A stretch of DNA of 64,000 nucleotides from NCBI RefSeq assembly GCF_022836875.1, contig NZ_CP090376.1:2790001-2854000 (forward strand). The letters are read 5' to 3'. Positions 403-64,000 of this stretch are shown here, one piece after another (position 1 is the stretch's first letter; each line of letters starts with the position of its first letter). This DNA is from Flavobacterium enshiense (GTDB lineage Bacteria > Bacteroidota > Bacteroidia > Flavobacteriales > Flavobacteriaceae). The translations under genes and the position numbers were made by a program. Below the pieces are notes generated by a model. That model ran no database searches. It was not told the origin of the DNA and saw nothing but the letters and a program-made list of their open reading frames with translations.

Positions 403-528
403 AACAGCGGTTTTAAGAAATTAGGGTTTGGGTGTATAATGGAACGGTCTTTTTGTATATTTGGCTTTAGTCCTAATGGAATGGTTTGGGAACAAAAATC
501 CCCAACTTCTTAAAGCCGGCGGGACGTT
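403..528 (+). repeat. attC-like site 1 (class A)
   Basis: Runs from the AAC of the left box to the GTT of the right box. The left half has AACAGCGG then TTTTAAGAAATTGGGG; the right half has CCCCAACTTCTTAAAG then CCGGCGGGACGTT. The halves pair apart from a few unpaired bases, as in integron attC sites, and by analogy the cut would be between G526 and T527. The loop holds a -7 element TATATTTG at 456-463 facing the next gene. Class A means a short loop with CTTCAGTCC-like sequence after the -7 element. Confidence 0.88.
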
Positions 529-560
529 GTGCGAAAGTTAACAAAACTAACATAAATAAT

Positions 561-1070
561 TTGGATACAAATAAAAACTCCCTACGAGACTATATCAATA
601 GAAATGTAAACATTCTTACTACAATAGGCATATTTAATGCACTAGCTATATATTCCTCATCGTTACCTATAAAAAATGAATTACCAAATATTTTGAGTCT
701 ATTTTTTTTGCTATTATCATTTATAAGCTCTTTACCTACTTTATATGAAAAAAAACACAGACATACATTGATTACACACGCTTTTAGTATCATAATTCTT
801 TCCTGTCAGTGTTTAATTATGATAATTGTTTCTGAAACATATTCTTGGGCGATGAAGAATATTATTACTCCTACTCTACTTTTATTATTTATGTCAATCT
901 TAGGCACATATTCCTTTACTAGAATTTTAATTCATAAAGAATGGTTCAAAAACATGAATAATAACCATAAAATTTTATTTTCATTTTTTTATATTACATT
1001 AATGCTAATAGCCATTCTTTTCACTTTAAGCTTTGTTCTAAACCGACTTGGATGGGGGTTTAATAAATGA
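561..1070 (+). CDS. Multi-pass membrane protein, unknown function
   Basis: About 169 aa from a TTG start at 561; the frame is open further upstream into the attC site, but that part only translates the repeat and has no ATG. About five hydrophobic segments follow (for example residues near LSLFFLLLSF, LIMIIVS, LLLLFMSIL and FSFFYITLMLIAI in order), so an inner-membrane location is likely. I do not recognise a family. The start codon is the weak point; no ATG occurs before the first membrane segment. Confidence 0.55.
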   Translation: MDTNKNSLRDYINRNVNILTTIGIFNALAIYSSSLPIKNELPNILSLFFLLLSFISSLPTLYEKKHRHTLITHAFSIIILSCQCLIMIIVSETYSWAMKNIITPTLLLLFMSILGTYSFTRILIHKEWFKNMNNNHKILFSFFYITLMLIAILFTLSFVLNRLGWGFNK

Positions 1071-1085
1071 TTAAAACCTTCGCAC

Positions 1086-1208
1086 AACAGCGGTTTGCAG
1101 CAAGTGGGGTTTTAGGGAAAAACCAAACATCTTTTGTATATTTGGCTTTAGTAATAAACAAACTAAAGGCACAAAAAATCCCCACCTGCAGCAAGCCGGC
1201 GGGACGTT
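1086..1208 (+). repeat. attC-like site 2
   Basis: 123 bp. Arms GTTTGCAGCAAGTGGGG / CCCCACCTGCAGCAAGC with a class A-like loop (AAACAAACTAAAGGC variant). -7 element TATATTTG at 1137-1144. The next cassette begins TTACCAGCC and is interrupted by the IS after 18 nt. Confidence 0.87.
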
Positions 1209-1276
1209 ACCAGCCATTTTAAAAAGTGCGTCGTCCTAAAATAGGTTGACTAAAAATTAAACACTTTTAGTATCCT

Positions 1277-1660
1277 ATGGAAACAACAAGAAAACAACCC
1301 TGCCGAAAAAATGAGTATCAGAAAATCAGTTTTGATCTCAAACTTTCCATCATTGACGAAATTAATAATGGACAAATCTCTGTAAACTATGCTGCCAAAA
1401 AGTATGGCATTTCTCGAAGTTCCATTGACTATTGGAGAAAGAAATTATCTAACTTTACATCCAAATCCAAAGCAATGAGCAAGAACGACGAGATTAAAAA
1501 ACTAAGAGAACGTATAGAAGAACTGGAATTTATTAAAGACTTCCAACAAGACATCATTGCTGATTTTGAAGTAACCACAGGACTGGATATCGCAAAAAAG
1601 TCGTTGCCCGAAACATTAGTAAAAGAGATAGAGAAAAAGAAAAGAAACCTTTTAAAGTAA
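1277..1660 (+). CDS. IS3-family transposase OrfA
   Basis: 127 aa. An N-terminal helix-turn-helix of the HTH_Tnp_1 kind (AAKKYGISRSSIDYWRKKL, about residues 39-57) would bind the terminal repeats, and a following coiled coil with leucine spacing (KKLRERIEELEF) would dimerise. Two candidate slippery sites lie in frame for a -1 shift into OrfB: AAAAAAG at 1594-1600 and GAAAAAG at 1633-1639. The second keeps the conserved OrfA tail and seems more likely. The OrfAB fusion would be the active transposase. Confidence 0.9.
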   Translation: METTRKQPCRKNEYQKISFDLKLSIIDEINNGQISVNYAAKKYGISRSSIDYWRKKLSNFTSKSKAMSKNDEIKKLRERIEELEFIKDFQQDIIADFEVTTGLDIAKKSLPETLVKEIEKKKRNLLK

Positions 1661-2502
1661 AATGGCTTTATCAATGTTTCGGAATATCCAAACAAGCTTA
1701 TTATAAACGAATCAAAGCTGATAAACAGCGAGAAGAACAAGTTATTGTAATTAAAGAACTCATTGCGCCTATCAGGAAAAAACAAACCCGGTACGGTGGA
1801 AGAAAACTGTACCTGGACATTAAAGATGATTTGGAAAAGAGGGATATAAAAATGGGAAGAGATAACTTTTTTAGGTTCTTGAAAACACATCAGTTATTGG
1901 TTAAGAAAACTAAGCAATTCCATATCACAACCGATTCCAAACATTTTTTCTATAAATCGCCAAACCGAATTAAGAACATCACTCCTACTCACGCGGAACA
2001 GATCTGGGTCAGCGATATAACCTACCTTAAAACACAAGAAAAACACGCTTATTTGGCTTTGGTAACAGACATCTATTCCAAGAAAATAATGGGGTTCAAA
2101 CTCGATACGAATATGAAAGCTACATTAGTGAAAGATGCTCTTCAAATGGCTTTAAAAAACAGAATGCATAAACATCAAAACATCATTCATCACAGCGACA
2201 GGGGAATACAGTATTGCTGTCCCGAGTTCTCCGAATTCGCGCAAAACAACGGCATGTTACTCAGTACAACCCAGCAATACGACCCTTATGAAAACGCAGT
2301 AGCGGAGAGGATTAACGGAATTTTGAAATATGAGTTTGGTTTATTAAAAACATTACCTAATTTAGTCTTGGCTCAGAAAATGATTAAACAGGCGGTAAAC
2401 ACATACAATAATGAAAGAAGGCACTACAGCTTAGATATGAAAACACCTGAGTTTGCACACAAAAATCAAATGCATAAATACAAATTTTACAACCTGAATT
2501 AA
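1633..2502 (+). CDS. IS3-family transposase OrfB (DDE integrase domain)
   Basis: This frame lies -1 to orfA and has no good start codon of its own upstream, so it is probably made as an OrfAB fusion by frameshifting; coordinates start at the likely slip site. After a helical region (CFGISKQAYYKR) comes the rve domain with all three acidic positions visible: the Asp in WVSDITYLK, the Asp in HHSDRGIQY and the Glu in NAVAERINGILKYE. The C terminus has the usual YNNERRHYSLDMKTPEF motif. It appears intact. Confidence 0.9.
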   Translation, partial: EKEKKPFKVKWLYQCFGISKQAYYKRIKADKQREEQVIVIKELIAPIRKKQTRYGGRKLYLDIKDDLEKRDIKMGRDNFFRFLKTHQLLVKKTKQFHITTDSKHFFYKSPNRIKNITPTHAEQIWVSDITYLKTQEKHAYLALVTDIYSKKIMGFKLDTNMKATLVKDALQMALKNRMHKHQNIIHHSDRGIQYCCPEFSEFAQNNGMLLSTTQQYDPYENAVAERINGILKYEFGLLKTLPNLVLAQKMIKQAVNTYNNERRHYSLDMKTPEFAHKNQMHKYKFYNLN

Positions 2503-2544
2503 TAACCAAAATGGTCAACCTATTTCAGGACAAGACAAAGACAA

Positions 2545-3051
2545 ATGACACTACAAAAATATATGGACAGCTTACCCAAAGATGGACAATTTAAAATTGC
2601 TATTCGACTGACAAAATTGGCTCTTCCAATTTGGGAAAATTATGCAGACAAAAATTCACTCACATATCGTGACACTGTGATTGGTTTGACACATACTGTG
2701 GAGAAGAAAATATTGAAAGACACTATTGATGCAGTTGAAAAATATCTCAACTCAAATAAGATTGAAAAATTCATTGGTGTGAAAAGCGAACTCACAGAAA
2801 TACGCAGACAATTTGATGACCCGATTGTTGCACTTCAAGACACCGATTGGGAATTACCAAACGAAGTTCAAAAAACATTTTATGCAGTTTATAATCTAAT
2901 AGACTATTTATTAGGTAAAGAGAAGACTGTTTTTGACGAATCGACAATTTATGTTTCAATTAATCAAGCGGTAGACGCACTAGAAACATCCAAAACCTTG
3001 ACCTTTGACGAAATAAGTAAAATACTTGATGAAATAAAAAACGGCAGGTAA
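2545..3051 (+). CDS. Hypothetical protein, soluble helical
   Basis: 168 aa, mostly amphipathic helix, with no signal peptide or membrane segment, so cytoplasmic. No family recognised. It is the cargo gene of the cassette broken by the IS, with its ATG only 7 bp after the IS end, so its original promoter in attC site 2 is now 1.3 kb away and any transcription would come from the IS or through it. The TAA stop (3049-3051) is contributed by the left box of attC site 3 (GGTAAC). Confidence 0.7.
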   Translation: MTLQKYMDSLPKDGQFKIAIRLTKLALPIWENYADKNSLTYRDTVIGLTHTVEKKILKDTIDAVEKYLNSNKIEKFIGVKSELTEIRRQFDDPIVALQDTDWELPNEVQKTFYAVYNLIDYLLGKEKTVFDESTIYVSINQAVDALETSKTLTFDEISKILDEIKNGR

Positions 3052-3204
3052 CAGCGGTTTTATGCTATGGCAGGGCTTGGGATTTTTTGGATTGGTCAGT
3101 ACTTGCATTTCTTCTTAAAAAGAAGTTTTTTCTTTCCACTTTTCGGTATATTTGTAAACATTAGTAATAAAAAATCTGCCACAGCATAAAGCCGGCGGGA
3201 CGTT
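3050..3204 (+). repeat. attC-like site 3 (class B with hairpin)
   Basis: 155 bp. Arms TTTTATGCTATGGCAGGG / CCGCCACAGCATAAAG; the A in GGCAGG is an uncompensated change against CCGCC. -7 TATATTTG at 3147-3154. The loop contains a hairpin plus T-tract. Confidence 0.86.
3111..3131 (+). terminator. Possible intrinsic terminator inside attC site 3
   Basis: CTTCTT/AAGAAG stem with an A-rich loop, followed by TTTTTT. It lies after the preceding gene and upstream of the -7 element of the same site. The stem has few G:C pairs, so strength is uncertain. Confidence 0.4.
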
Positions 3205-3328: not shown

Positions 3329-4066
3329 TTAAATCGACTTCGGATTTTTAGCAAATAAATTACGATTGAACGCTACAACTTCCTCGTGTGTCGGTTGCGT
3401 GGTAAATTTCATTAAATCTAAAATTGCCAAATCACGAATTTGTGGAGCAGTTTTTTTGTCAGCATTTTCGAGTGCCTCTTTTAGGTCAGACGAATTTAAT
3501 TCTGTACAATAAGCAGGTGTTCCAGGTTGGTGTTTCCAAGATTGCGACAAAAGCCCTGCATCGACAAAATCAAAACCTGCATCCTTGACCAAGCCAGATA
3601 CTATTTTTTTTGCGTTTTCATCATTTCCTGAAATAGCCATAGCAATATTTTCATTTCCGCTAACAAGACTTTGAGCTAAAAGATTATTAAATGCTTTTAT
3701 AACAGGACGACCAATTTGCTCGGAAACCCATTCACTTTCAACTTTACCAGCTTTTAGTTCTTCAATTTCGCCATCTCGAAAAGGGTAATAATTTGCGGTA
3801 TCGACTATAATTAAATTTTGTGGGCTTTCTTCAAACAAATTTTTTGGCAAATCAGGAATTGCAATAGTTGGAACAGATAATATAACAACATCTACATTTT
3901 TTACAACATCCATTAACGAAGCGGGCAAAGCACCGATTTCGTTTGCTTTTTTCTCTAATTCTTCAAATACATCTCTATTTGAAACTTTAACTTGATGACC
4001 TGCCGCAATCATTTTTTTTGCAATTGTGCCACCAATAGCACCAGTGCCAATTATTCCTATTTTCAT
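3329..4066 (-). CDS. NADPH-dependent F420 reductase-like oxidoreductase
   Basis: 245 aa. The N terminus has a Rossmann dinucleotide motif GIIGTGAIGGTIAKKM (about residues 4-19), then SNRD at the end of beta-2, typical of the NADP oxidoreductase, coenzyme F420-dependent family (F420_oxidored). Residues VILSVPTIAIPDLP and IIVDTANYYPFRDGE fit the family's core, and the later KAFNN segment corresponds to the substrate side. The electron partner is unknown; many bacterial members do not use F420. It is the only reverse-strand gene accepted in the window, divergent from the HxlR regulator at 4161 with a 94-bp intergenic region. It probably responds to that regulator. Confidence 0.85.
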   Translation of the reverse strand: MKIGIIGTGAIGGTIAKKMIAAGHQVKVSNRDVFEELEKKANEIGALPASLMDVVKNVDVVILSVPTIAIPDLPKNLFEESPQNLIIVDTANYYPFRDGEIEELKAGKVESEWVSEQIGRPVIKAFNNLLAQSLVSGNENIAMAISGNDENAKKIVSGLVKDAGFDFVDAGLLSQSWKHQPGTPAYCTELNSSDLKEALENADKKTAPQIRDLAILDLMKFTTQPTHEEVVAFNRNLFAKNPKSI

Positions 4067-4546: not shown

Positions 4547-4671
4547 AACAAGGGTTTTATGCAAGTGGGGTTTTAAGGCAAAACTGAAACATCTTTTTGT
4601 ATATTTGGCTTCAGTCTTAATGGAATGGTTCGGGAGCAAAAGTCCCCACCTGCATAAAGCCCCGGGACGTT
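4547..4671 (+). repeat. attC-like site 4 (AAGGG core variant)
   Basis: 125 bp. Left core AACAAGGGTTTT pairs with AAAGCCCCGGGACGTT, replacing the usual GCGG/CCGGC on both sides. Inner arms ATGCAAGTGGGG / CCCCACCTGCAT. -7 TATATTTG at 4600-4607. Confidence 0.87.
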
Positions 4672-5197: not shown

Positions 5198-5321
5198 AAC
5201 AGCGGTTTTAAGAAATTGGGGCTATAGGCAAAATTTAAAGGTAATTTCATATATTTGGCTACAGTTCTAATGGAATGGTTTGAGAACAAAATCCCCAACT
5301 TCTTAAAGCCGGCGGGACGTT
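5198..5321 (+). repeat. attC-like site 5 (class A)
   Basis: 124 bp. Arms TTTTAAGAAATTGGGG / CCCCAACTTCTTAAAG. -7 TATATTTG at 5250-5257. Confidence 0.87.
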
Positions 5322-5971: not shown

Positions 5972-6129
5972 AACAGCGGTTTTATGAAATGGCGGGTTTA
6001 GGGATTTATCGGTAATGGTCAGTGTTTGTTTTTCTTTCTCCGAAAGAGGTTTTTTCATTCAGTCTTTTCGGTATATTTGTAAACATCAGTAATAAAAATT
6101 CCGCCACTTCATAAAGCCGGCGGGACGTT
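5972..6129 (+). repeat. attC-like site 6 (class B)
   Basis: 158 bp. Arms TTTTATGAAATGGCGG / CCGCCACTTCATAAAG. -7 TATATTTG at 6072-6079. Class B loops are longer and carry CGGTATATTTGTAAAC. Confidence 0.87.
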
Positions 6130-6807: not shown

Positions 6808-6932
6808 AACAGCGGTTTTGTGAAAGTGGGGTTTGTGGCAAAATTTAAAGACAATTTTATATATTTGACTTCAGTCCTAATGGAATGGTTTAGGAACAAA
6901 AATCCCCACCTCCACAAAGCCGGCGGGACGTT
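6808..6932 (+). repeat. attC-like site 7
   Basis: 125 bp. Arms TTTTGTGAAAGTGGGG / CCCCACCTCCACAAAG, class A-like loop with AAATTTAAAG. -7 TATATTTG at 6861-6868. Confidence 0.87.
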
Positions 6933-6964: not shown

Positions 6965-7336
6965 ATGAATCCTATAATTAAGAATTTATTTGCTTATCTC
7001 ATATTTAGTTTCATAACTGCCGTAATATTCGCCATTATCTTAAAAATTAAAGTAGGTGGTGGTCAAATGGTGGTTATGGCTCCTCTTTATTTACTAATAA
7101 ATTCAGCAATAGCGATTATAATATCATTAGTACTTATATCTGTTATAAGAAATCTTATTACAATAACTTTATCGTTAAGTCTATGGCTATTTATGATAGT
7201 ATTTGTTTTAACAATGTTTGTGAACAATGATTTTAATCTATTCAAAAATGATATAGATGTATTGTCATTTTCGAGTGTATTTATATCTTTCGTAATATTT
7301 CAATTAACATTAATGATTAAAAAAAACTTCGCATAA
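6965..7336 (+). CDS. Small membrane protein, duplicated cassette copy 1
   Basis: 123 aa with four membrane segments (LFAYLIFSFITAVIFAIIL, MAPLYLLINSAIAIIISLVL, TLSLSLWLFMIVFVLTMFV and SVFISFVIFQLTLMI). The protein is identical to that at 34485-34856, and the following attC sites (8 and 43) are also nearly identical, so whole cassettes were copied. One base in the cassette start here (GTTATTCGAA instead of GTTATGCGAA) spoils the match to its own end. Stop TAA is formed by the attC box. Confidence 0.72.
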   Translation: MNPIIKNLFAYLIFSFITAVIFAIILKIKVGGGQMVVMAPLYLLINSAIAIIISLVLISVIRNLITITLSLSLWLFMIVFVLTMFVNNDFNLFKNDIDVLSFSSVFISFVIFQLTLMIKKNFA

Positions 7337-7492
7337 CAGCGGTTTTCTGCAATGGCGGGTTTAGGGATTTTTTGGGATGGTTAGTGTTTGCATTGCTTCT
7401 TTAAAAAGAAGTCTTTTCCTAACTACTTTTCGGTATATTTGTAAACGTCAGTAATAAAAAAACCGCCGCTGACAGAAAGCCGGCGGGACGTT
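7335..7492 (+). repeat. attC-like site 8 (class B with hairpin)
   Basis: 158 bp. Arms TTTTCTGCAATGGCGG / CCGCCGCTGACAGAAAG. -7 TATATTTG at 7434-7441. Hairpin CTTCTTTAAAAAGAAG in the loop but the T-tract is interrupted (TCTTTT). Confidence 0.87.
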
Positions 7493-7514: not shown

Positions 7515-7952
7515 ATGACAAAACAATATTATAAAAATCTATCGCTTACATTTCTAATTATAATCGTTTGGTGTGTTTATGTATTCTTTGACTACTTTAC
7601 AGAAACTGACGGATTTATTAAGCTAGCATTGTTTTTTGATTATTTTAATGCAGTCGCATTTGCTAGTGGATTGGCAATGCTAAATATTCTTCTGAGATTT
7701 ACGACATTTAGAAATCAAACTGAAAGGTTTAAAGACAATTTTTTCTATATTTTTTCTGCAATAGCAAATTTGTTTCTACCAATTGTTTATTTAATTTATT
7801 TAGTAATTAGAAAGCGGTCAATTATTGAATTTATAACAACTCTAGAACTAGGTAACATACTTATAATGTTGAATGTCATATTTGGATGTTTTATCATGAC
7901 TGATATATATTACAATAGAAAAACATCGACAGAAAACATGACCAGCTGCTAA
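7515..7952 (+). CDS. Membrane protein, unknown function
   Basis: 145 aa, four predicted membrane segments: LTFLIIIVWCVYVFFDYF, an Ala/Gly-rich AVAFASGLAMLNILL, FYIFSAIANLFLPIVYLIYLVI and ILIMLNVIFGCFIM. Acidic loop after segment 1 (TETDG) and a basic loop RKRS. Family not recognised. The stop TAA at 7950-7952 comes from the attC box, so the last codons (ENMTSC) read through the cassette's terminal inverted repeat. Confidence 0.65.
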   Translation: MTKQYYKNLSLTFLIIIVWCVYVFFDYFTETDGFIKLALFFDYFNAVAFASGLAMLNILLRFTTFRNQTERFKDNFFYIFSAIANLFLPIVYLIYLVIRKRSIIEFITTLELGNILIMLNVIFGCFIMTDIYYNRKTSTENMTSC

Positions 7953-8076
7953 CAGCGGTTTTAAGAAATTGGGGCTTTAGTGTTTAATGGAACGATCTTT
8001 TTGTACATTTGACTTCAGTCCTAATGGAATGGTTTGGGAACAAAAATCCCCAACTTCTCAAAGCCGGCGGGACGTT
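7951..8076 (+). repeat. attC-like site 9 (class A)
   Basis: 126 bp. Left arm TTTTAAGAAATTGGGG, right arm CCCCAACTTCTCAAAG (one uncompensated C). -7 element TACATTTG at 8004-8011, differing from the common form only at an n position of TAnnTTTG. Confidence 0.86.
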
Positions 8077-8099
8077 AACGGCAAGCTGAAAAAAACGAT

Positions 8100-8606
8100 A
8101 TGGAAAGAAACGCAATCATTTTGATAATCCTTTTTTTTACGAAAATAAGTTTTGCACAAAATTTGGATTTTGATGAAATAAAATTCAAAGGTTTGAGTTT
8201 ATATTCTTCAAAAAATCAAATAATCGAACAGCTTGGAAACCCCAAAAAGGAATACATTTCTAATTATGAATGCGGTGATTTTTCTAGTGAAGAACAAGGT
8301 GCAACATATTATAGTTTAGATTACGGAAGTGTAAAATTTACTGGAAATCAAAATGAAAAGTATGTTATAGATAAAGTTGATTTTGAAAATGACAAATCTT
8401 TAATTCTACATTACCAAAAACACAAATTAACTTGTGAAACAACATTGAATGAATTAGTAGAAATATTTGGTAAACAAATTATTGAACTTATAGGAAGCGA
8501 ATCAAACGGTGCGTTTATTATTCAACATTCTGAATATGATAATGGAATAAGATTTGAAATAAAAAATGGAAAACTAATAACATTTGAATATTGGTCACCT
8601 TGCTAA
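8100..8606 (+). CDS. Secreted protein, homologue of 62569-63075
   Basis: 168 aa with an N-terminal signal peptide (IILIILFFTKISFAQ, cleavage after residue 19 or so), so exported to the periplasm. The mature part has short beta-prone segments, two Cys (NYECGDF and the terminal WSPC) and a motif LGNPKKEY seen in small BamE-like folds, though I would not assign it. The paralogue at 62569 is clearly related (same length, many substitutions), showing old cassette duplication. Confidence 0.72.
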   Translation: MERNAIILIILFFTKISFAQNLDFDEIKFKGLSLYSSKNQIIEQLGNPKKEYISNYECGDFSSEEQGATYYSLDYGSVKFTGNQNEKYVIDKVDFENDKSLILHYQKHKLTCETTLNELVEIFGKQIIELIGSESNGAFIIQHSEYDNGIRFEIKNGKLITFEYWSPC

Positions 8607-8619
8607 ACAGCCAGCCGTT

Positions 8620-8740
8620 AACAGCGGTTTTAAGCAATGGCGGGGCTTGGGATTTTTTGGAATGTTTTGTGAAATTTTTCGGTATATTTGTGAAGTTCCG
8701 TGAGTGGAAAACCGCCACTGCATAAAGCCGGCGGGACGTT
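8620..8740 (+). repeat. attC-like site 10 (shortened class B)
   Basis: 121 bp, the shortest complete site. Arms TTTTAAGCAATGGCGG / CCGCCACTGCATAAAG. The loop lacks the TTTGCACTTC block of class B yet keeps -7 TATATTTG at 8683-8690. Confidence 0.86.
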
Positions 8741-8768
8741 ATGCGACATCGCAAAAAACTAAACCTTC

Positions 8769-9221
8769 ATGATGAATAAATTTACTTTATCTTATATCCT
8801 TTTGGTAAATGCGGCCATAATTGCTCTTGCAATTGCAGATATGATTTCGGGAAATATTTTTCTTAAATATATTTTTTTTATTATTAATTCTATTGTTTCA
8901 ATTTATTGTGTTTTTCACATTACCAAAAAATATGCATACCATTATTTGTGCGCTACAAATCTCATTCAAGCTTTCTCATTAATGCTATTTGGTTTTAGCT
9001 TCAAATTTCTATTAGGCCCTGATTTATCATTTTTTCTATACAGTGAAGGAGATTTAAAATCTACGCTGAGTTTCAAAATTTTCAATGTTTTTTTAATCTG
9101 TTCAAAAGGTTCTGAGATTAATGATTGGGTAATTGGGATTAATTTTATCCATCTTTTTGTTTTTTTCCATCTATTTTCCCTAATTTCTAAATCTAAAACG
9201 AAAATAAGCAACGTCGCATAA
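8769..9221 (+). CDS. Membrane protein, unknown function
   Basis: 150 aa. Four hydrophobic segments: LSYILLVNAAIIALAIADM, YIFFIINSIVSIYCVF, ATNLIQAFSLMLFGFSF and WVIGINFIHLFVFFHLFSLI. A loop with acidic residues (SEGDLK) precedes the last segment. Two adjacent ATG codons occur at 8769 and 8772. Stop TAA is supplied by attC site 11 (CGCATAAC). Family not recognised. Confidence 0.65.
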   Translation: MMNKFTLSYILLVNAAIIALAIADMISGNIFLKYIFFIINSIVSIYCVFHITKKYAYHYLCATNLIQAFSLMLFGFSFKFLLGPDLSFFLYSEGDLKSTLSFKIFNVFLICSKGSEINDWVIGINFIHLFVFFHLFSLISKSKTKISNVA

Positions 9222-9346
9222 CAGCAGTTTGCAGCAAGTGGGGCTTTAGGGCTAAATTTATTGTTGGTTTTGTGTTTGTAAACTTAATCTTAAATTGATA
9301 CTTTTGGGAAAACAATCCCCCACCTGCAGCAAGCTGGCGGGACGTT
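9220..9346 (+). repeat. attC-like site 11 (class C)
   Basis: 127 bp. Core AACAGCAG with arms GTTTGCAGCAAGTGGGG / CCCCCACCTGCAGCAAG and GCTGGCGGGACGTT. Class C loop with a complete promoter: TTTG at 9275-9278 and TACTTTTG at 9299-9306. Confidence 0.88.
9275..9306 (+). promoter_or_regulatory. Promoter in class C attC loop
   Basis: TTTG, 20 bp spacer, then TACTTTTG, matching the Bacteroidota -33/-7 consensus TTTG-N19-20-TAnnTTTG. It faces the gene at 9391; the start of transcription would fall inside the right half of attC site 11. Confidence 0.7.
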
Positions 9347-10730: not shown

Positions 10731-10889
10731 AACAGCGGTTTTGTGCAAGTGGGGTTTTGGGTGTTTATCGGTAATGGTCAGTGTTTGCACTTCTCTCCTA
10801 TTTTTCAACTTTTTTCTTTCAGACTTTTCGGTATATTTGTAAACATCAGTAATGAAAATCCCCACCTGCCACAAAGCCGGCGGGACGTT
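10731..10889 (+). repeat. attC-like site 12 (class B)
   Basis: 159 bp. Arms TTTTGTGCAAGTGGGG / CCCCACCTGCCACAAAG. -7 TATATTTG at 10832-10839. Confidence 0.87.
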
Positions 10890-10910: not shown

Positions 10911-11525
10911 ATGCGAAAACATAGCAGAAAAATTTTTTATTCGCCTGGATTGATTAGCATAATTTTACTGCCAATTATGTGTATCCTTTTTTTAAAAAGT
11001 AGAGACGCATTTACCCAATATGGTTCAATAACTTTAGCTACTTGGGATGGCAAAATTTTCTATAATGAAATAACTACTTTCTTAAATTCTAAAAAATTTA
11101 CAAAAGTCACTTTAACGGGAGATTATGATTCTGACAAGATAAAACTAATTAATTCTAAAAAAGAAATACAAAGATTAATAAGTACTAAAGATTCAATAAA
11201 TGGAATACAATTTCATTTTGACGAAAAATCAAAATATTGGTCATATGTAAAAGTTGTAGAAATTCTACAAGACGAGAACGCACAGTTTTATGTCCCATAT
11301 AAAAATGATATTTGGTTTACCAATCCAAAACTTCCAAAAAAAGAAACAAAAACTTTCGTGTGTGGAAATACTGTAAATATGATTTGCGTAAGTGAAAAAC
11401 CAAATTTTAATTTAGATATAATCCAAAATATTGTAAAAAAATATTATCTGATAATTATTATATATTTACTGATGGTTTATTTCACAATTAGAAAAATTTA
11501 CAGCTTGAATAAAGGCATCCGCTAA
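10911..11525 (+). CDS. Two-TM periplasmic-domain protein, duplicated copy 1
   Basis: 204 aa: one membrane segment (LISIILLPIMCILFL, residues 14-28), a periplasmic domain of about 140 residues, and a second segment (YYLIIIIYLLMVYF, near 180-193). The central domain (VTLTGDYDSDKIKL and FDEKSKYWSYVKVVEIL) recalls ExbD-like folds, but this is a weak impression. It is nearly identical to 60273-60887; the visible protein change is ICV versus AYV. Stop TAA is in the attC box. Confidence 0.7.
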   Translation: MRKHSRKIFYSPGLISIILLPIMCILFLKSRDAFTQYGSITLATWDGKIFYNEITTFLNSKKFTKVTLTGDYDSDKIKLINSKKEIQRLISTKDSINGIQFHFDEKSKYWSYVKVVEILQDENAQFYVPYKNDIWFTNPKLPKKETKTFVCGNTVNMICVSEKPNFNLDIIQNIVKKYYLIIIIYLLMVYFTIRKIYSLNKGIR

Positions 11526-11649
11526 CAGCAGTTTGCAGCAAGTGGGGCTTTAAGGCAAAATTTATTGTTGGTTTTGTGTTTGTAAACTTAATCTTAAATT
11601 GATACTTTTGGGATAACAATCCCCACCTGCAGCAAGCTGGCGGGACGTT
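11524..11649 (+). repeat. attC-like site 13 (class C)
   Basis: 126 bp. Same arms as site 11. -33 TTTG at 11579-11582 and -7 TACTTTTG at 11603-11610. Confidence 0.87.
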
Positions 11650-11679
11650 GTGCAACATTTTGAACAAACAAGACGTTTA

Positions 11680-12024
11680 ATGAGAAAAATTGTAAATCTA
11701 GCTAAGCCAAAAAATGGAATCGTAAGACTTATGATATACAATAACGAAAACGAAACATATCTTTTTGGATATAAAAAATTAGAGGATTGTAGTTCAGAAT
11801 TTGACGAATGGTTTGAATCAGAAAACGATGCTCTAGAATCATGCAAAACTGAATACGGAATTAATATAACTGACTGGAAAGAAATAGCAAACCCTGAATT
11901 AAATTGCCAACATGATTGGATTAATCCAGTTCGAGTAAAAGGACGCGAAAACGGAAATCCCGAATTTGGAAAATTCGAAAAATTGGTAAACGGAAAATGG
12001 ATTGAATTTAATCTAACTGAATAA
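11680..12024 (+). CDS. Hypothetical soluble protein
   Basis: 114 aa from ATG 11680 (an upstream GTG at 11650 is just the cassette's terminal repeat). Acidic alpha/beta protein without signal peptide: MIYNNENETYLFGY strands, then an acidic helix FDEWFESENDALESC, and a C-terminal region QHDWINPVRVKG. The spacing of residues is reminiscent of small polymorphic-toxin immunity proteins, which I cannot confirm. Confidence 0.62.
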   Translation: MRKIVNLAKPKNGIVRLMIYNNENETYLFGYKKLEDCSSEFDEWFESENDALESCKTEYGINITDWKEIANPELNCQHDWINPVRVKGRENGNPEFGKFEKLVNGKWIEFNLTE

Positions 12025-12038
12025 GAAAAACGTCGCAC

Positions 12039-12195
12039 AACAGCGGTTTTGTGCTAGTGGGGTTTTAGGATTTATCGGTAAAGGTCGGTGTTAGCACTTC
12101 TCTCCTATTTTTTCAACTTTTTCTTTCAATCTTTTCGGTATATTTGTAAACATCAGTAACAAAAATCCCCACCAGCACAAAGCCGGCGGGACGTT
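12039..12195 (+). repeat. attC-like site 14 (class B)
   Basis: 157 bp. Arms TTTTGTGCTAGTGGGG / CCCCACCAGCACAAAG; the CTAG/CCAG change is compensated across the stem. -7 TATATTTG at 12139-12146. Confidence 0.87.
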
Positions 12196-12800: not shown

Positions 12801-12926
12801 AACAGCGGTTTTAAGAAATTGGGGTTTCGGTGTTTAACGGAACGAGCTTTTTGTATATTTGACTTCAGTCCTAATGGAAAGGTTTGGGAACAAAAATCCC
12901 CAACTTCTTAAAGCCGGCGGGACGTT
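12801..12926 (+). repeat. attC-like site 15 (class A)
   Basis: 126 bp. Arms TTTTAAGAAATTGGGG / CCCCAACTTCTTAAAG. -7 TATATTTG at 12854-12861. Confidence 0.88.
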
Positions 12927-51744: not shown

Positions 51745-51870
51745 AACAAGGGTTTTGTGAAATTGGGGCTTTTAGGCAAAAAATATTGTTGGTTTTGTGT
51801 TTGTAAACATAATCTTAAATTTATATTTTTGGGAGAACTAATCCCCAACTTCACAAAGCCCCGGGACGTT
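51745..51870 (+). repeat. attC-like site 64 (AAGGG core, class C loop)
   Basis: 126 bp. AACAAGGGTTTT / AAAGCCCCGGGACGTT with inner arms GTGAAATTGGGG / CCCCAACTTCAC, but a class C loop. It combines arm and loop types that are otherwise separate. -7 TATTTTTG at 51824-51831. Confidence 0.87.
51800..51831 (+). promoter_or_regulatory. Promoter in attC site 64
   Basis: TTTG, 20 bp, TATTTTTG: the spacer length and the TAnnTTTG pattern match other class C promoters although the flanking bases differ. Confidence 0.66.
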
Positions 51871-51933: not shown

Positions 51934-52326
51934 ATGAATACTAATCATATAGAAACATATTTTGAACTTGAAGATTTAATTGAATCTGATAATTCCAATC
52001 ATAAATTAAAGGATATTGCGGAATTGTTTTTGACTGCAATGAATGATTGGCCAACGTACAACCAAGTGCGCATTGATGAATTTATCAATGAGTTAAAAGA
52101 ACATTTTGGCGAACCTTTGTCGATAGAAAAAATTAAAGCAAAAAAGCTTAAAATGGATACTCAAAATTCCTGGAGACATGAATCAGGAAGTTCGATATGC
52201 GAAATGATTGAACTTTCTAAATTGCATTACGGTGAAATGGATTTTGACAAAATCATAGCAAATATCTTGGACTATTATGGAAGTTTAGAAATTAATAATA
52301 AATCAGACAATAATGCCAGCAGTTAA
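51934..52326 (+). CDS. Hypothetical soluble protein
   Basis: 130 aa, acidic, mostly helical: IETYFELEDLIESDNSNH, LFLTAMNDWPTYNQVRIDEF, then DTQNSWRHESGSSICEMIEL and a C-terminal helix ending in Asn/Ser-rich residues that run through the cassette terminus (NNASS). Stop TAA in the attC box of site 65. Family not recognised. Confidence 0.62.
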   Translation: MNTNHIETYFELEDLIESDNSNHKLKDIAELFLTAMNDWPTYNQVRIDEFINELKEHFGEPLSIEKIKAKKLKMDTQNSWRHESGSSICEMIELSKLHYGEMDFDKIIANILDYYGSLEINNKSDNNASS

Positions 52327-52480
52327 CAGCGGTTTTAAGAAATGGCGGGTTTGGGGATTTATCGGTAATGGTCAGTGAATATTTTCTTCTCCGAAGTGAG
52401 GCTTTTTCTTTCAATCTTTTCGGTATATTTGCAAACATCAGTAATAAAAATCCGCCACTTCTTAAAGCCGGCGGGACGTT
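52325..52480 (+). repeat. attC-like site 65 (class B)
   Basis: 156 bp. Arms TTTTAAGAAATGGCGG / CCGCCACTTCTTAAAG. -7 TATATTTG at 52424-52431. Confidence 0.88.
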
Positions 52481-52881: not shown

Positions 52882-53038
52882 AACAGCGGTTTTAAGAAAT
52901 GGCGGGTTTGGGGATTTATCGGTAAAGGTCAGTGAATATTTTCCTTCTCCGAAGTGGGGCTTTTTCTTTTAAACTTTTCGGTATATTTGTAAACATCAGT
53001 AACAAAATTCCGCCACTTCTTAAAGCCGGCGGGACGTT
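52882..53038 (+). repeat. attC-like site 66 (class B)
   Basis: 157 bp. Arms TTTTAAGAAATGGCGG / CCGCCACTTCTTAAAG. -7 TATATTTG at 52982-52989. Confidence 0.88.
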
Positions 53039-53598: not shown

Positions 53599-53755
53599 AA
53601 CAGCGGTTTTAAGAAATGGCGGCTTTAGGGATTTATCGGTAATGGTCAGTGAATATTTTTCTTCTCCGAAGTGAGGATTTTTCTTTCTAACTTTCGGTAT
53701 ATTTGTAAACATCAGTAATAAAAATTCCGCCACTTCTTAAAGCCGGCGGGACGTT
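53599..53755 (+). repeat. attC-like site 67 (class B)
   Basis: 157 bp. Arms TTTTAAGAAATGGCGG / CCGCCACTTCTTAAAG. -7 TATATTTG at 53698-53705. Confidence 0.88.
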
Positions 53756-54289: not shown

Positions 54290-54634
54290 ATGTCTATAAT
54301 CGATGAACCAGCAAGTCCTTTTCTTTTATTCACATACTTCGATTTTCTCCTTGTTTTCATTTTAATACTTGTTAATATATTTTTACACAAAACAAATTTG
54401 ATTACGAAAATTGATTGGAAATTAAAGCTTCTACTATTTATAATTCTTTTTGTAGTTATTCCAATAATTTCAGTGAATAAGGAAGTTTCAAATGCTTATA
54501 AAAAGTTCATCACAGTTGACGATTTTAACCTGATCTATATATTTTTTAAATTTCCAATTTGGTGGTTAATTGGTGTGATTGAAATATTTATAATTAGAAT
54601 CATTGTTGGAATGAAATTAAAAAACTACACCTAA
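54290..54634 (+). CDS. Small membrane protein, partner of HEPN-like gene
   Basis: 114 aa. Membrane segments FLLVFILILVNIFL, LLLFIILFVVIPIISV and FPIWWLIGVIEIFIIRIIV. Starts 6 bp after the stop of the HEPN-like gene, so co-transcription and possible coupling are expected. The last residues (KLKNYT) read into the cassette's terminal repeat and the stop is the TAA of the attC box. Function unknown. Confidence 0.63.
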   Translation: MSIIDEPASPFLLFTYFDFLLVFILILVNIFLHKTNLITKIDWKLKLLLFIILFVVIPIISVNKEVSNAYKKFITVDDFNLIYIFFKFPIWWLIGVIEIFIIRIIVGMKLKNYT

Positions 54635-54758
54635 CAGCGGTTTTAAGAAATTGGGGGTTTAGTGTTTAATGGAACGGTCTTTTTGTATATTTGGCTTCAG
54701 TCCTAATGGAATGGTTTGGGAACAAAAATCCCCAACTTCTTAAAGCCGGCGGGACGTT
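54633..54758 (+). repeat. attC-like site 68 (class A)
   Basis: 126 bp. Arms TTTTAAGAAATTGGGG / CCCCAACTTCTTAAAG. -7 TATATTTG at 54686-54693. Confidence 0.88.
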
Positions 54759-55394: not shown

Positions 55395-55551
55395 AACAGC
55401 GGTTTTAAGAAATGGCGGGTTCAGGGATTTATCAGTAGTGGTCAGTGAATATTTTTCTTCTCCGAAGTGAGGCTTTTTCTTTCAAACTTTTCGGTATATT
55501 TGTAAGCAACAGTAATAAAATTCCGCCACTTCTTAAAGCCGGCGGGACGTT
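55395..55551 (+). repeat. attC-like site 69 (class B)
   Basis: 157 bp. Arms TTTTAAGAAATGGCGG / CCGCCACTTCTTAAAG. -7 TATATTTG at 55495-55502. Confidence 0.88.
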
Positions 55552-56339: not shown

Positions 56340-56465
56340 AACAGCGGTTTTAAGAAATTGGGGTTTGAGTGTTTAATGGAACGAGCTTTTTGTATATTTG
56401 ACTTCAGTCCTAATGGAATGGTTCGGGAACAAAAATCCCCAACTTCTTAAAGCCGGCGGGACGTT
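56340..56465 (+). repeat. attC-like site 70 (class A)
   Basis: 126 bp. Arms TTTTAAGAAATTGGGG / CCCCAACTTCTTAAAG. -7 TATATTTG at 56393-56400. Confidence 0.88.
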
Positions 56466-57091: not shown

Positions 57092-57248
57092 AACAGCGGT
57101 TTTGTGAAAGCGGGGTTTAGGTCTGTATCGGTAAGAGCCAGTGTTTGCACTTCTCTCCTATTTTTCAACTTTTCTCTTTCAAACTTTTCGGTATATTTGT
57201 AAATATCAGTAATAAAAACCCCCGCCTTCACAAAGCCGGCGGGACGTT
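57092..57248 (+). repeat. attC-like site 71 (class B)
   Basis: 157 bp. Arms TTTTGTGAAAGCGGGG / CCCCGCCTTCACAAAG. -7 TATATTTG at 57192-57199. Confidence 0.87.
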
Positions 57249-57812: not shown

Positions 57813-57969
57813 AACAGCGGTTTTAAGAAATGGCGGCTTTAGGGATTTATCGGTGATGGTCAGTGAATATTTTTCTTCTCCGAAGTGAGGCTTTTTCTTT
57901 CAAACTTTTCGGTATATTTGTAAACGTCAGTAATAAAAATCCGCCACTTCTTAAAGCCGGCGGGACGTT
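57813..57969 (+). repeat. attC-like site 72 (class B)
   Basis: 157 bp. Arms TTTTAAGAAATGGCGG / CCGCCACTTCTTAAAG. -7 TATATTTG at 57913-57920. Confidence 0.88.
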
Positions 57970-58803: not shown

Positions 58804-58929
58804 AACAGCGGTTTTAAGAAATTGGGGTTTGAGTGTTTAATGGAACGGTCTTTTTGTATATTTGGCTTCAGTCTTAATGGAATGGTTTGGGAACAAAAAT
58901 CCCCAACTTCTTAAAGCCGGCGGGACGTT
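58804..58929 (+). repeat. attC-like site 73 (class A)
   Basis: 126 bp. Arms TTTTAAGAAATTGGGG / CCCCAACTTCTTAAAG. -7 TATATTTG at 58857-58864. Confidence 0.88.
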
Positions 58930-59535: not shown

Positions 59536-59693
59536 AACAGCGGTTTTGTGCAAGCGGGGTTTGGGTGTGTATCGGGAAGAGCCAATGTTTGCACTTTCTT
59601 CTCCGAAGTGAGGTTTTTTCTCTCAAACTTTTCGGTATATTTGTAAACGTCAGTAATAAAAATCCCCGCCTGACACAAAGCCGGCGGGACGTT
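59536..59693 (+). repeat. attC-like site 74 (class B)
   Basis: 158 bp. Arms TTTTGTGCAAGCGGGG / CCCCGCCTGACACAAAG. -7 TATATTTG at 59636-59643. Contrast with site 55 after the duplicate gene. Confidence 0.87.
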
Positions 59694-60125: not shown

Positions 60126-60251
60126 AACAGCGGTTTTAAGAAATTGGGGTTTTAGGGCTTAATGAAACGGTCTTTTTGTATATTTGACTTCACTCCTATC
60201 GGAATGGTTTGGGAACAAAAATCCCCAACTTCTTAAAGCCGGCGGGACGTT
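60126..60251 (+). repeat. attC-like site 75 (class A)
   Basis: 126 bp. Arms TTTTAAGAAATTGGGG / CCCCAACTTCTTAAAG. -7 TATATTTG at 60179-60186. Confidence 0.88.
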
Positions 60252-60272: not shown

Positions 60273-60887
60273 ATGCGAAAACATAGCAGAAAAATTTTTT
60301 ATTCGCCTGGATTGATTAGCATAATTTTACTGCCAATTATGTGTATTCTTTTTTTAAAAAGTAGAGACGCATTTACCCAATATGGTTCAATAACTTTAGC
60401 TACTTGGGATGGCAAAATTTTCTATAATGAAATAACTACTTTCTTAAATTCTAAAAAATTTACAAAAGTCACTTTAACGGGAGATTATGATTCTGACAAG
60501 ATAAAACTAATTAATTCTAAAAAAGAAATACAAAGATTAATAAGTACTAAAGATTCAATAAATGGAATACAATTTCATTTTGACGAAAAGTCAAAATATT
60601 GGTCATATGTAAAAGTTGTAGAAATTCTACAAGACGAGAACGCACAGTTTTATGTCCCATATAAAAATGATATTTGGTTTACCAATCCAAAACTTCCCAA
60701 AAAAGAAACAAAAACTTTCGTGTGTGGAAATACCGTAAATATGGCTTACGTAAGTGAAAAACCAAATTTTAATTTAGATATAATCCAAAATATTGTAAAA
60801 AAATATTATCTGATAATTATTATATATTTACTGATGGTTTATTTCACAATTAGAAAAATTTACAGCTTGAATAAAGGCATCCGCTAA
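60273..60887 (+). CDS. Two-TM periplasmic-domain protein, duplicated copy 2
   Basis: 204 aa, near-identical to 10911-11525, followed by the same class C attC type. The cassette start is GTTAGCGGAAACC here against GTTAGCGAAAACC in copy 1; only this copy pairs with the end GGCATCCGCTAAC at position 8. Stop TAA in the attC box. Confidence 0.7.
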   Translation: MRKHSRKIFYSPGLISIILLPIMCILFLKSRDAFTQYGSITLATWDGKIFYNEITTFLNSKKFTKVTLTGDYDSDKIKLINSKKEIQRLISTKDSINGIQFHFDEKSKYWSYVKVVEILQDENAQFYVPYKNDIWFTNPKLPKKETKTFVCGNTVNMAYVSEKPNFNLDIIQNIVKKYYLIIIIYLLMVYFTIRKIYSLNKGIR

Positions 60888-61012
60888 CAGCAGTTTGCAG
60901 CAAGTGGGGCTTTAAGGCTTAATTTATTGTTGGTTTTGTGTTTGTAAACTTAATCTTAAATTGATACTTTTGGGAAAATAATTCCCCACCTGCAGCAAGC
61001 TGGCGGGACGTT
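60886..61012 (+). repeat. attC-like site 76 (class C)
   Basis: 127 bp. Arms GTTTGCAGCAAGTGGGG / CCCCACCTGCAGCAAG. -33 TTTG at 60941-60944, -7 TACTTTTG at 60965-60972. Confidence 0.87.
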
Positions 61013-61046: not shown

Positions 61047-61592
61047 ATGATTGATAAAGAAAGACGAAAAAAATTAGCCTATCATCTAAGACATTTATCA
61101 ATAGGATTAATAACTAATGATGAATTTGAAAACTATATATTAGACGATGTAAGCTTTGGCTGGTTGCCGGAACAATATTATAGAGCAAAGGAAGCTAAAC
61201 TTGATGATCCAATAATCCAACCTATGCTTGAATTAAGTTGGTGTTTATATAGTAGCTTAAAAGAATACAAATTAGAAGGTAAAAACAAACTTACTAACGA
61301 ACAATTAAAAGAAATAGCTAAATATATTTTGTTTTTGAATTCTGATAATGAATATGAGTGGCCATATTATGACTTTATAAATCCACAAATTAAATCTTCA
61401 TTTAGGGAAGATATTGCCAACCTTTTATCCTTTGGAAAATATTACAAAAACAAAATGGACGAAAAAGAAAAGGAGTTTGCTGAAATGCAAAAAATGGGAG
61501 ATTATGATTATTGGCCATTCATAAGTAAGGAACAATACGAAGAACAGCTAAAACATCAACCATTCTTGACGGAAAGAAAAGCGAACGCCTAA
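61047..61592 (+). CDS. Hypothetical soluble helical protein
   Basis: 181 aa from ATG 61047. Basic N terminus (DKERRKKLAYHLRHLSIG), acidic helical middle (FENYILDDVSFGWLPEQYYR), and a charged C-terminal helix (KNKMDEKEKEFAEMQKMG). DYDYWPFISKEQYEEQ recalls a segment of small immunity-like proteins. Cytoplasmic. Stop TAA in the attC box. Confidence 0.62.
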   Translation: MIDKERRKKLAYHLRHLSIGLITNDEFENYILDDVSFGWLPEQYYRAKEAKLDDPIIQPMLELSWCLYSSLKEYKLEGKNKLTNEQLKEIAKYILFLNSDNEYEWPYYDFINPQIKSSFREDIANLLSFGKYYKNKMDEKEKEFAEMQKMGDYDYWPFISKEQYEEQLKHQPFLTERKANA

Positions 61593-61749
61593 CAGCGGTT
61601 TTGTGCAAGCGGGGTTTTAGGGATTTATCGGTAATGGTCAGTGTTTGCACTTCTCTCCTATTTTTCAGCTTTTTTCTTTCAGTCTTTTCGGTATATTTGT
61701 AAACATCAGTAATAAAAATCCCCGCCTGACACAAAGCCGGCGGGACGTT
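61591..61749 (+). repeat. attC-like site 77 (class B)
   Basis: 159 bp. Arms TTTTGTGCAAGCGGGG / CCCCGCCTGACACAAAG. -7 TATATTTG at 61692-61699. Confidence 0.87.
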
Positions 61750-61797
61750 ACCAGCAATTTTTTAAAAACACGGAAAAATTCATATGTCGAAAAAAAC

Positions 61798-62409: not shown

Positions 62410-62419
62410 AACTGCTGGT

Positions 62420-62545
62420 AACAGCGGTTTTAAGAAATTGGGGTTTCGGTATTTAATGGGACGGTCTTTTTGTATATTTGACTTCAGTCCTAATGGAATG
62501 GTTCGGGAACAAAAATCCCCAACTTCTTAAAGCCGGCGGGACGTT
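62420..62545 (+). repeat. attC-like site 78 (class A)
   Basis: 126 bp. Arms TTTTAAGAAATTGGGG / CCCCAACTTCTTAAAG. -7 TATATTTG at 62473-62480. Confidence 0.88.
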
Positions 62546-62568
62546 AACGGCAAGCTGGAAAAAACGAT

Positions 62569-63075
62569 ATGAAAAGAAACCAAATCTTTCTAATATTTCT
62601 CTTTTTGACGGAAATAAGTTTTGCGCAAAAATTAGATTTTGACAAAATAAAATTTAATGATTTGGGGTTCTATTCTTCTAAAAACCAAATAATAGAAAAA
62701 CTTGGAATCCCAAAAAAAGAATACATTGTCAACTATGAATGTGGTGATTTTTCTACTGAAGAACAAGGCGAAATATATTATAGTTTAGATTACGGAAGTA
62801 TAAGGTTTACTGGTAATGAAAATGTAAAATATGTTATTGAAATAATAGATTTTAAAAATGACAAATCTTTAATTCTATATTATCAAAAACACAAACTAAC
62901 TAGTGAAACAACATTAAATGAATTGCTAAACATATTTGGTAAAGAGATTATTCAACAATTAGAAGACAAATCAAATGGTACATTTATTATTCAACATCCT
63001 GAATATGATAATGGGATAAGAATTGAAATAAAAAAAGGAAAGCTAATAAGATTGGAATATTGGTCTCCTTGCTAA
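62569..63075 (+). CDS. Secreted protein, homologue of 8100-8606
   Basis: 168 aa with signal peptide (IFLIFLFLTEISFAQ). Shares LDFDKIKFNDLGFYSSKNQI, YECGDFSTEEQG and the last WSPC with the paralogue at 8100. Both cassettes use the termini GTTAACGGCAAGCTG / CAGCCAGCCGTTAAC, so they stem from one cassette despite clear divergence of the proteins. Confidence 0.72.
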   Translation: MKRNQIFLIFLFLTEISFAQKLDFDKIKFNDLGFYSSKNQIIEKLGIPKKEYIVNYECGDFSTEEQGEIYYSLDYGSIRFTGNENVKYVIEIIDFKNDKSLILYYQKHKLTSETTLNELLNIFGKEIIQQLEDKSNGTFIIQHPEYDNGIRIEIKKGKLIRLEYWSPC

Positions 63076-63088
63076 ACAGCCAGCCGTT

Positions 63089-63245
63089 AACAGCGGTTTT
63101 ATGAAATGGCGGGGTTTGGTGATTTTTTGGAATGGCTTGGTGCTTTTATTTCTTCTTTTCATTCAGCCTTTTTCTTTCTAACTTTCGGTATATTTGTAAA
63201 CATCAGTAATAAAATTCCGCCACTTCATAAAGCCGGCGGGACGTT
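63089..63245 (+). repeat. attC-like site 79 (class B)
   Basis: 157 bp. Arms TTTTATGAAATGGCGG / CCGCCACTTCATAAAG. -7 TATATTTG at 63189-63196. Confidence 0.87.
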
Positions 63246-63267
63246 AGTGGCAAGCTTAAAAAACGAG

Positions 63268-63924
63268 ATGAAAAACCTACTATATTTAATAACCATACTT
63301 ACTCTTTTTAGCTGTAATGAAAAGTCAAAATCTTTAGCTAAACAAAAAGTAGAAATCAAAAAAGAAAGTAAATATTCAGGATTACTCAAAAAGTTTGAGA
63401 ATATTTCTTTTGATACTTTAAAAATATTCTCTGAAGAGAATTTCAAAAAATTTAAAGGCCAAGAACTTGATAGTTTAGATGTTATTTTGTTTCCAAAAGA
63501 AATAGCCGAACATCATTTCATAGATCCTCCAGGTATATTTGCTTGCTATAAATTTTCAATTGATTCTTCTAGAATTGGATTAATCGCAAGAACTCCTTCT
63601 GAATATTTACCTTCTTCAATTAAATTGTTTGTCTATAACAAAGAAAAAGATAAGATAACTCAATATATAGAATTAAGTGAAAGCATTGGAGATGCAGGAG
63701 ATGTTTTAGAAAAAACTGCGTGGTTATTCAAAACTCAGAAGAAAGATTTTCAATCTTTAGTTTGGGTTCGTGAAAGTCATTACAATAGTGTTGAAGATGA
63801 AAATGATACAACAATTGTACGTTGGGACTCTCATTATCTAATTGATTTATCAAAACCAAAATTTGATACTATTAATAAAATTTCAAAGTTTCTTTCCCAA
63901 GAATTTAAAAACTTATTGAAATAA
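63268..63924 (+). CDS. Lipoprotein, unknown function
   Basis: 218 aa from ATG 63268; longer readings run back into attC. Lipobox LFSC (Cys near residue 15), then a Lys-rich linker and a domain with FPKEIAEHHFIDPPGIFACYKF, FVYNKEKDKITQYIEL and SLVWVRESHYNSVEDENDTTI. Envelope lipoprotein; family not recognised. Last gene of the window. Confidence 0.67.
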   Translation: MKNLLYLITILTLFSCNEKSKSLAKQKVEIKKESKYSGLLKKFENISFDTLKIFSEENFKKFKGQELDSLDVILFPKEIAEHHFIDPPGIFACYKFSIDSSRIGLIARTPSEYLPSSIKLFVYNKEKDKITQYIELSESIGDAGDVLEKTAWLFKTQKKDFQSLVWVRESHYNSVEDENDTTIVRWDSHYLIDLSKPKFDTINKISKFLSQEFKNLLK

Positions 63925-63936
63925 AAGCCTGCCACT

Positions 63937-64000
63937 AACAGCGGTTTTCTGCAATGGCGGGTTTAGGGATTTATTTGGGATGGCTAGTGTTTGTATTTCT
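63937..64000 (+). repeat. attC-like site 80, cut by window end
   Basis: Left half only: AACAGCGGTTTTCTGCAATGGCGG, same arm class as sites 8, 43, 48 and 54. The array therefore continues to the right. Confidence 0.85.

Follow-up and report, generated by a model that had tools for sequence, protein, structure and literature searches.

A 64,000-nucleotide stretch of the one-contig, 3,251,289-bp genome of a Flavobacterium enshiense strain (genome positions 2790001-2854000 of contig C1, hereafter the window) carries a long series of palindromic, attC-like sites, with a gene cassette between each site and the next. Integrons are best known for collecting antibiotic-resistance genes by means of the integrase IntI. 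Judged from sequence comparison, the cassettes described here are likely to have been captured and shuffled by a different enzyme, a tyrosine recombinase without the extra domain of IntI that is encoded at the head of the array.

A motif scan of the window finds 79 complete sites and a further one cut by the right edge, and a covariance model returns the same count, with 79 full-length matches of 108.7-194.5 bits, all on the + strand, and 55.3 bits for the cut 80th site. The model was trained on 53 sites of the same genome, and these training sites match by construction. Measured from AAC to GTT, the sites are 121-160 bp long; by length the complete ones split into a short class of 40 and a long class of 39. 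Of the 78 intervals between them, 73 span 400-1400 bp, and the median is 740. In control scans the right-half motif gave 118 matches on the + strand of a 144-kb region against 2 on the opposite strand, and a stricter site pattern read backwards gave none across the whole genome. The number of sites, their length and their spacing had been put forward in a first-pass annotation of the window, and in all these respects the earlier description holds. The features of the window are:

403..64000, + strand: the portion of the cassette array that falls inside the window, with 79 complete sites, 1 partial site and a cassette between neighbours (motif and covariance model)
Complete sites 1-10, AAC start to GTT end, + strand: 403-528, 1086-1208, 3050-3204, 4547-4671, 5198-5321, 5972-6129, 6808-6932, 7335-7492, 7951-8076, 8620-8740
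Complete sites 11-20, + strand: 9220-9346, 10731-10889, 11524-11649, 12039-12195, 12801-12926, 13391-13547, 14179-14334, 15055-15178, 15737-15893, 16648-16773
Complete sites 21-30, + strand: 17181-17306, 17930-18056, 18509-18666, 19188-19314, 20179-20304, 20906-21062, 21738-21864, 22268-22423, 23365-23521, 24078-24203
Complete sites 31-40, + strand: 24844-24969, 25475-25633, 26559-26685, 27562-27683, 28173-28297, 29730-29853, 30272-30396, 30965-31088, 31572-31727, 32339-32494
Complete sites 41-50, + strand: 33411-33566, 34296-34452, 34855-35012, 35566-35725, 36335-36491, 36990-37113, 37547-37671, 38243-38400, 39020-39143, 39832-39957
Complete sites 51-60, + strand: 40633-40759, 42788-42946 (start taken from the covariance model; the motif-scan start is 10 bases too early, giving a length of 169), 43503-43660, 44665-44822, 45429-45584, 46278-46434, 46965-47089, 47632-47755, 48408-48565, 49009-49164
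Complete sites 61-70, + strand: 49649-49807, 50672-50797, 51211-51370, 51745-51870, 52325-52480, 52882-53038, 53599-53755, 54633-54758, 55395-55551, 56340-56465
Complete sites 71-79, + strand: 57092-57248, 57813-57969, 58804-58929, 59536-59693, 60126-60251, 60886-61012, 61591-61749, 62420-62545, 63089-63245
63937..64000, + strand: 80th site, cut by the window edge and ending at 64095 (motif and covariance model)
11650..12024, + strand: example cassette gene, from the longest-open-reading-frame listing of the 78 window cassettes

The window is the middle portion of an array of about 130 kb (array 1, about 2,746.4-2,876.7 kb) that extends on both sides of it and holds at least 121 sites, 118 of them found by motif up to 2,872.6 kb and 3 more up to 2,876.7 kb (L082). 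Array 2 lies on the minus strand at about 2,195.6-2,230.8 kb with 45 sites by motif, and isolated single sites occur at about 1,002, 2,304 and 2,310 kb. By motif this one genome has at least 163 sites, a total close to that of the largest Vibrio arrays. Excision of all cassettes shorter than 3 kb from both arrays yielded 159 (115 from array 1 and 44 from array 2). The longest open reading frame (ORF) is on the site strand in 113 of the 115 array-1 cassettes, on the other strand in one, and in one there is no ORF of 50 aa; the stop codon lies a median of 13 nt ahead of the AAC of the site. The arrangement first noticed in the window, of genes nearly all on one strand with a site at their 3′ end, is that of array 1 as well.

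Insertion at G|TT would mean that a cassette's first and last bases stem from a single circle, and they should then be complementary to one another and not to the bases facing them across the site as it lies. In array 1 the 7 nt that follow GTT, compared with the 7 nt ahead of the next AAC in reverse complement, agree at an identity of 0.919 over 115 cassettes, 75 of which are perfect, against 0.483 for shuffled cassette ends (maximum 0.535 over 2000 shuffles) and 0.477 for the two ends of a single site as it lies. Array 2 gives 0.909 over 44 cassettes, against 0.488 when shuffled. The GTT-type site ends that had been proposed from the window are found where predicted. Fewer than 6 of the 7 bases pair in 7/115 and 5/44 cassettes of arrays 1 and 2, respectively, and some of these, at least, reflect a misplaced site start in the scan. 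The base beyond the 7 almost never matches (0.02 and 0.0 in arrays 1 and 2) and the four bases past this mismatch match again (0.83-0.93), which makes the R arm about 15 nt long, its 11th position being mismatched almost throughout. In this the sites differ from those of Vibrio-type integrons, where the textbook R box is the 7-nt GTTRRRY.

The arms covary, as seen over 53 sites and 23 named pairs. Standard pairs fill 90.1% of cells, 10 of the 23 pairs change on both sides, and the covariation score is 0.238 against 0.071 for shuffled and at most 0.057 for slid alignments; one of the named pairs never forms and one L-arm position pairs in 34/53 sites only. In the L arm GCGG lies opposite CCGGC, so that one base has no partner; another pair takes the place of its C-G pair in 6/53 sites, and the next pair outwards is missing in 6. 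Besides this extra L-arm base the hairpin has a one-sided bulge of 4-5 nt. In DNA folding, a site with its own ends rejoined outperforms the same site with its ends as lying in 154/156 cases, on either strand. The architecture of attC is present in these sites, with R and L arms, a GTT end and imperfect pairing.

The recombinase and attI-like site at the array head

From the orientation of the cassettes the first-pass annotation had predicted an integrase and an attI site to the left of the window, and had counted the lack of any recombinase able to act on the sites as evidence against its reading. A recombinase and an attI-like GTT are indeed found 44-45 kb to the left, at the head of array 1; the enzyme is not an IntI:

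genome 2744762-2745832 (L001:14762-15832), + strand: tyrosine recombinase of 356 aa, at the left end of array 1 and on the same strand as the cassettes
genome 2745977-2745999 (L001:15977-15999): attI-like site, GCGTATATACATGA|GTTAGGCGC, 158 bp past the recombinase stop

At 9/10 positions the end of the attI-like site is complementary to the 3′ end of the first cassette itself, the next best GTT reaching 5. Contigs of F. enshiense and F. limnosediminis can be aligned with the stretch ahead of the array, and both alignments end at L001:15995, within 5 bases of the attI-like GTT; that with Flavobacterium sp. SM15 ends at L001:16001. Array 2 is headed by the last part of a recombinase and by the same attI core, here matching at 10/10. 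In 11/12 loci there is a GTT that agrees with the end of the first cassette at 9-10/10 (next best 5-7), 95-204 bp past the recombinase stop where this was measured, and in ten Flavobacterium loci the recombinase heads an array with a matching attI (L007 has a remnant only, and L101 fails). An attI-type insertion point thus appears to lie beside the recombinase gene. Unlike in classical integrons, the recombinase is on the cassette strand in the loci tested for attI. The classical layout is seen in L041, L044, L045, L059, L025 and L027, where the sites are on the strand opposite the recombinase and run away from it (genes were read in L044 only). Three of these arrays, in Flavobacterium, Planobacterium and Myroides (L041, L044 and L045), are headed by almost identical 279-aa recombinases, which look recently transferred between genera.

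The reading frame of the head recombinase is uninterrupted and keeps the residues taken to be catalytic. Its nearest named relative, from F. enshiense, is 93% identical, and its best solved relative is the Vibrio IntI 2a3v. It was nevertheless rejected as an IntI. The IntI insert of about 37 residues is absent from 40/40 aligned members of the family and present in 25/25 aligned IntIs (20 of them chosen by TIGR02249 score), the TIGR02249 match is split (3-176 and 240-315) and below cut-off, and the enzyme falls outside an IntI clade with a support of 100/100. It shares its fold with XerA, XerC, XerD and XerH, and two Xer-like proteins of the genome, which branch apart from it, also have no IntI insert. 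The chromosome-dimer resolvase Xer is a housekeeping gene in nearly all members of its group; the head recombinase is not of this kind, being present in 79/150 genomes of the same genus and 121/295 of the same class (E 1e-60). Unlike the Xer proteins, the family is patchy, is located at cassette arrays and has long forms with an N-terminal domain of about 75 residues.

These observations bear on the possibility that the array is a classical integron, built by an IntI that is encoded elsewhere in the genome or has been lost, with the head recombinase a bystander. The layout is that of an integron, some relatives have arrays away from the recombinase, and IntI is above the curated cut-off in 105/395 Bacteroidota genomes. 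Against this, no protein of the one-contig genome reaches the IntI cut-off of 265 bits, the best stretches scoring 111 and 103; the IntI matches share only the phylum with our strain, save one genome of the same class (G394), and none is from the same family or genus; and it is the non-IntI enzyme that heads arrays with a matching attI in the ten Flavobacterium loci. We regard a hidden or vanished IntI as very improbable.

Copied cassettes and occurrence in other genomes

Among 507 cassettes from 12 genomes there are 44 pairs of near-identical genes (at least 94% identity over at least 98% coverage) in 31 families, the pairs not all being independent, and fifteen pairs are 100% identical at separate places. 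An identity of at least 95% is reached by the gene's own downstream site in 26/44 pairs and by the upstream site in 1/44, the lone case coming from a copied block of two cassettes, whose second member it is; the own site alone is shared in 24 pairs and the upstream site alone in 0. Random pairs of sites reach 95% in 3/200 cases. Since the downstream site is shared and the upstream site is not, the copied unit is the gene plus its downstream site, and the cassette thus seems to move as a unit, with 18/44 pairs left unexplained. Within this genome 16 near-identical pairs involve 29/159 cassettes, 3 of the pairs linking arrays 1 and 2, and one two-cassette block has differing outer neighbours at its two places:

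8077..9346 of the window and genome 2747892-2749161, + strand: two adjacent cassettes recurring as a block, with 100% identity in the two genes and in the own site of each

The content of the array also differs between close relatives. Counterparts were found for only 6/159 cassettes among 77 from the F. enshiense comparison genome (E 1e-20, 70% coverage), although the recombinase and its adjoining genes align at 88-92%; this comparison array is only partly recovered. A gene order fixed among relatives, which the first-pass annotation had named as the outcome that would tell against mobile cassettes, is therefore not what this partly recovered array displays. One cassette gene is 99.7% identical between F. 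cauense (L073) and Flavobacterium sp. SM15 (L079), with sites that are 76% alike, and looks like a recent transfer of one gene; the recombinases of these two species are 78% and 74% identical to that of array 1.

The same comparisons speak to the idea of a dead, static array, whose formerly mobile cassettes are now copied only through homologous recombination between repeats. An insertion-sequence-like element and a 23-kb element inside array 1, the mere remnant of a recombinase at array 2 and the exchanges that extend into the site all fit such decay. Exchange between repeats, though, would be expected to carry the upstream site about as often as the downstream one, against the observed 0 and 24, and the fifteen pairs of identical genes at separate places and the open frame of the recombinase with its conserved catalytic residues also make a defunct array most unlikely.

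The sites and the recombinase tend to occur together. With thresholds of E 1e-10 for sites and E 1e-60 for the recombinase, 85 of 150 Flavobacterium genomes have sites, 79 the recombinase and 62 both (Fisher p 1e-8, relatedness ignored); for 295 Bacteroidia genomes the numbers are 84, 121 and 60 (p 2e-11, relatedness again ignored). Cassette ends pair at 0.939-0.970 in six other Flavobacterium genomes, against 0.478-0.547 when shuffled, and at 6/7 or better in 26/29 cassettes from twelve further loci, including Planobacterium, Myroides and Chryseobacterium (9 of these loci are outside or not assigned to Flavobacterium, and 1/30 cassettes was dropped, its AAC or GTT being missing). This association, the position at the array head, the attI and the remnant of the same enzyme heading array 2 also weigh against the view that the sites are acted on by the host Xer recombinases, without any role for the head recombinase. 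The genome does encode Xer-like proteins, and other integrating elements use Xer (PMC4792948, PMC7790495), yet we give very little credence to Xer as the enzyme acting here.

Proposed mechanism and related systems

Taken together, the evidence makes it very probable that this is an integron-type chromosomal array, whose cassettes would be moved at the G|TT of attC-like sites by a head recombinase without the IntI extra domain. The integron-like interpretation of the first-pass annotation is supported. By the sequence tests applied, and with exceptions, the system works like an integron; it is not an IntI integron, because the defining feature of the enzyme was looked for and is absent. As in the chromosomal IntI integrons of the Vibrio type, the array is long and on one strand, its cassettes mostly hold a single gene and all have a palindromic site, the ends are of GTT type, the two ends of a cassette are complementary, and an attI adjoins the recombinase; the enzyme, without the insert and outside the IntI clade, sets it apart.

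In the mechanism that we propose, cassettes would be inserted and cut out at the G|TT of the palindromic sites, a cleavage position suggested by the ends, with the head recombinase as the acting enzyme. An excised cassette would leave as a circle, its rejoined ends completing the R arm of about 15 nt, the substrate would be a folded single strand, and new cassettes would enter at attI. Since the extra domain of IntI is absent, the choice of strand would have to come from features of the hairpin, which is long and imperfect: the one-sided 4-5-nt bulge, the extra L-arm base and the 11th-position mismatch of the R arm, perhaps aided by the enzyme's own N-terminal domain.

Several observations weigh against this mechanism. 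The extra domain of IntI has been termed necessary for integron recombination (PMC9668308), reportedly also by Messier and Roy in 2001. The bottom strand is the better folder in 90/156 sites when rejoined and 46/156 as lying, which is no clear advantage. At L101, one of the 12 loci tested, no attI was found near the recombinase, and in F. cauense and F. saliperosum no site lies directly behind it, the arrays being elsewhere in those genomes. Sites occur in 23/71 Flavobacterium and 24/174 Bacteroidia genomes that lack the recombinase, and no site was found in 17/79 and 61/121, respectively, of those that have it. Finally, own sites are less than 95% identical in 18/44 near-identical gene pairs, and in three such pairs that were inspected the identity extends past the R arm into the opening bases of the site, beyond which the site bodies differ. 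Simple exchange at G|TT does not explain breaks inside the site; recombination within it is a possible source of the swapped bodies. Site-body swaps are seen between genome 2746591-2747074 and 2839165-2839648, 2834823 and 2848930, and 2777465 and 2813522.

The open literature, as distinct from subscription journals and preprints, yielded no description of the present system. Bacteroidota are listed among the phyla with integrons (PMC8618304, PMC9668308), complete integrons of the Bacteroidetes/Chlorobi group are attributed to Chlorobi, Ignavibacteriae and Salinibacter ruber, and an earlier census is said to have found only In0 in Bacteroidetes (PMC9024848). A parallel comes from another member of the Bacteroidota, Riemerella anatipestifer, in which aph(3′)-IVb integrates without homology, along with the 27 bp that precede and the 140 bp that follow it (PMC13148043). 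There, as is proposed here, a single gene travels together with a hairpin of about 140 bp and needs no homologous flanks. Its authors compare this hairpin with attC, cite lnu(H) and blaRATA as similar cases and favour site-specific recombination, the mechanism of which they describe as not yet elucidated; their main text nowhere uses the word integrase (PMC13148043). The present system may explain this capture, through a presumed link to its recombinase family.

If the recombinase does shuffle cassettes, this would be an overlooked second kind of integron. Searches that require the IntI domain would not name such recombinases, and a large cassette pool in Bacteroidia, with the sites of this genome as one example, would have gone unread. 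A wider proposal, which we put forward tentatively and rate somewhat below an even chance, is that Bacteroidia run a second, independent or pre-IntI integron lineage, whose recombinases never had the I2 helix and work on attC-like hairpins, and that the same machinery gives Riemerella and its relatives their homology-free capture of resistance genes. The origin of I2 and attC has been called a chicken-and-egg paradox that intermediate forms would solve (PMC4792948). Were recombinases without I2 to work on attC-like hairpins, attC-type cassettes need not have waited for I2, and the system would be a natural test case for how attC was selected before I2 and vice versa (PMC4792948); it would also offer a mechanism for the homology-free capture of a resistance gene in an animal pathogen (PMC13148043).

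Cargo, insertions and variant loci

Few cassette proteins can be named. Pfam and PADLOC scans covered 74 of the 78 window ORFs, 4 repeats of others being omitted. The 74 proteins match 30 Pfam families, and the 25 families listed match one protein each; short-chain dehydrogenase, RibD C-terminal, Mrr-type restriction enzyme and immunity protein 53 are among the matches, and a match to an integrase core belongs to an inserted insertion sequence (IS). PADLOC returns 8 families, headed by a type IV restriction enzyme. The sole array-1 cassette with its longest ORF on the opposite strand is at window 3329-4066 (- strand), and the start of this ORF resembles an NAD(P)-binding oxidoreductase.

An IS-like insertion, which by its appearance we take to be of IS3 type, occupies window 1225-2536, inside the cassette between the sites ending at 1208 and 3204, and a second copy that has the same ORFs is found at about 12762-13987 of L004. 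The 23-kb gap in array 1 (genome 2752.2-2775.5 kb; L002:2169 to L003:5548) holds an apparent inserted element with a tyrosine recombinase, a type III restriction-modification-like pair and large NTPases. In F. saliperosum (L019; F. cauense is L020) a 63-bp stretch at L019:11092-11154 resembles the interior of a site. A Flavobacteriales metagenome-assembled genome has, behind a related recombinase, genes that share one N-terminus; after them come short hairpins whose ends read CATAAC and GTTATAG (L057:11050-14850), possibly a short-site version of the system.

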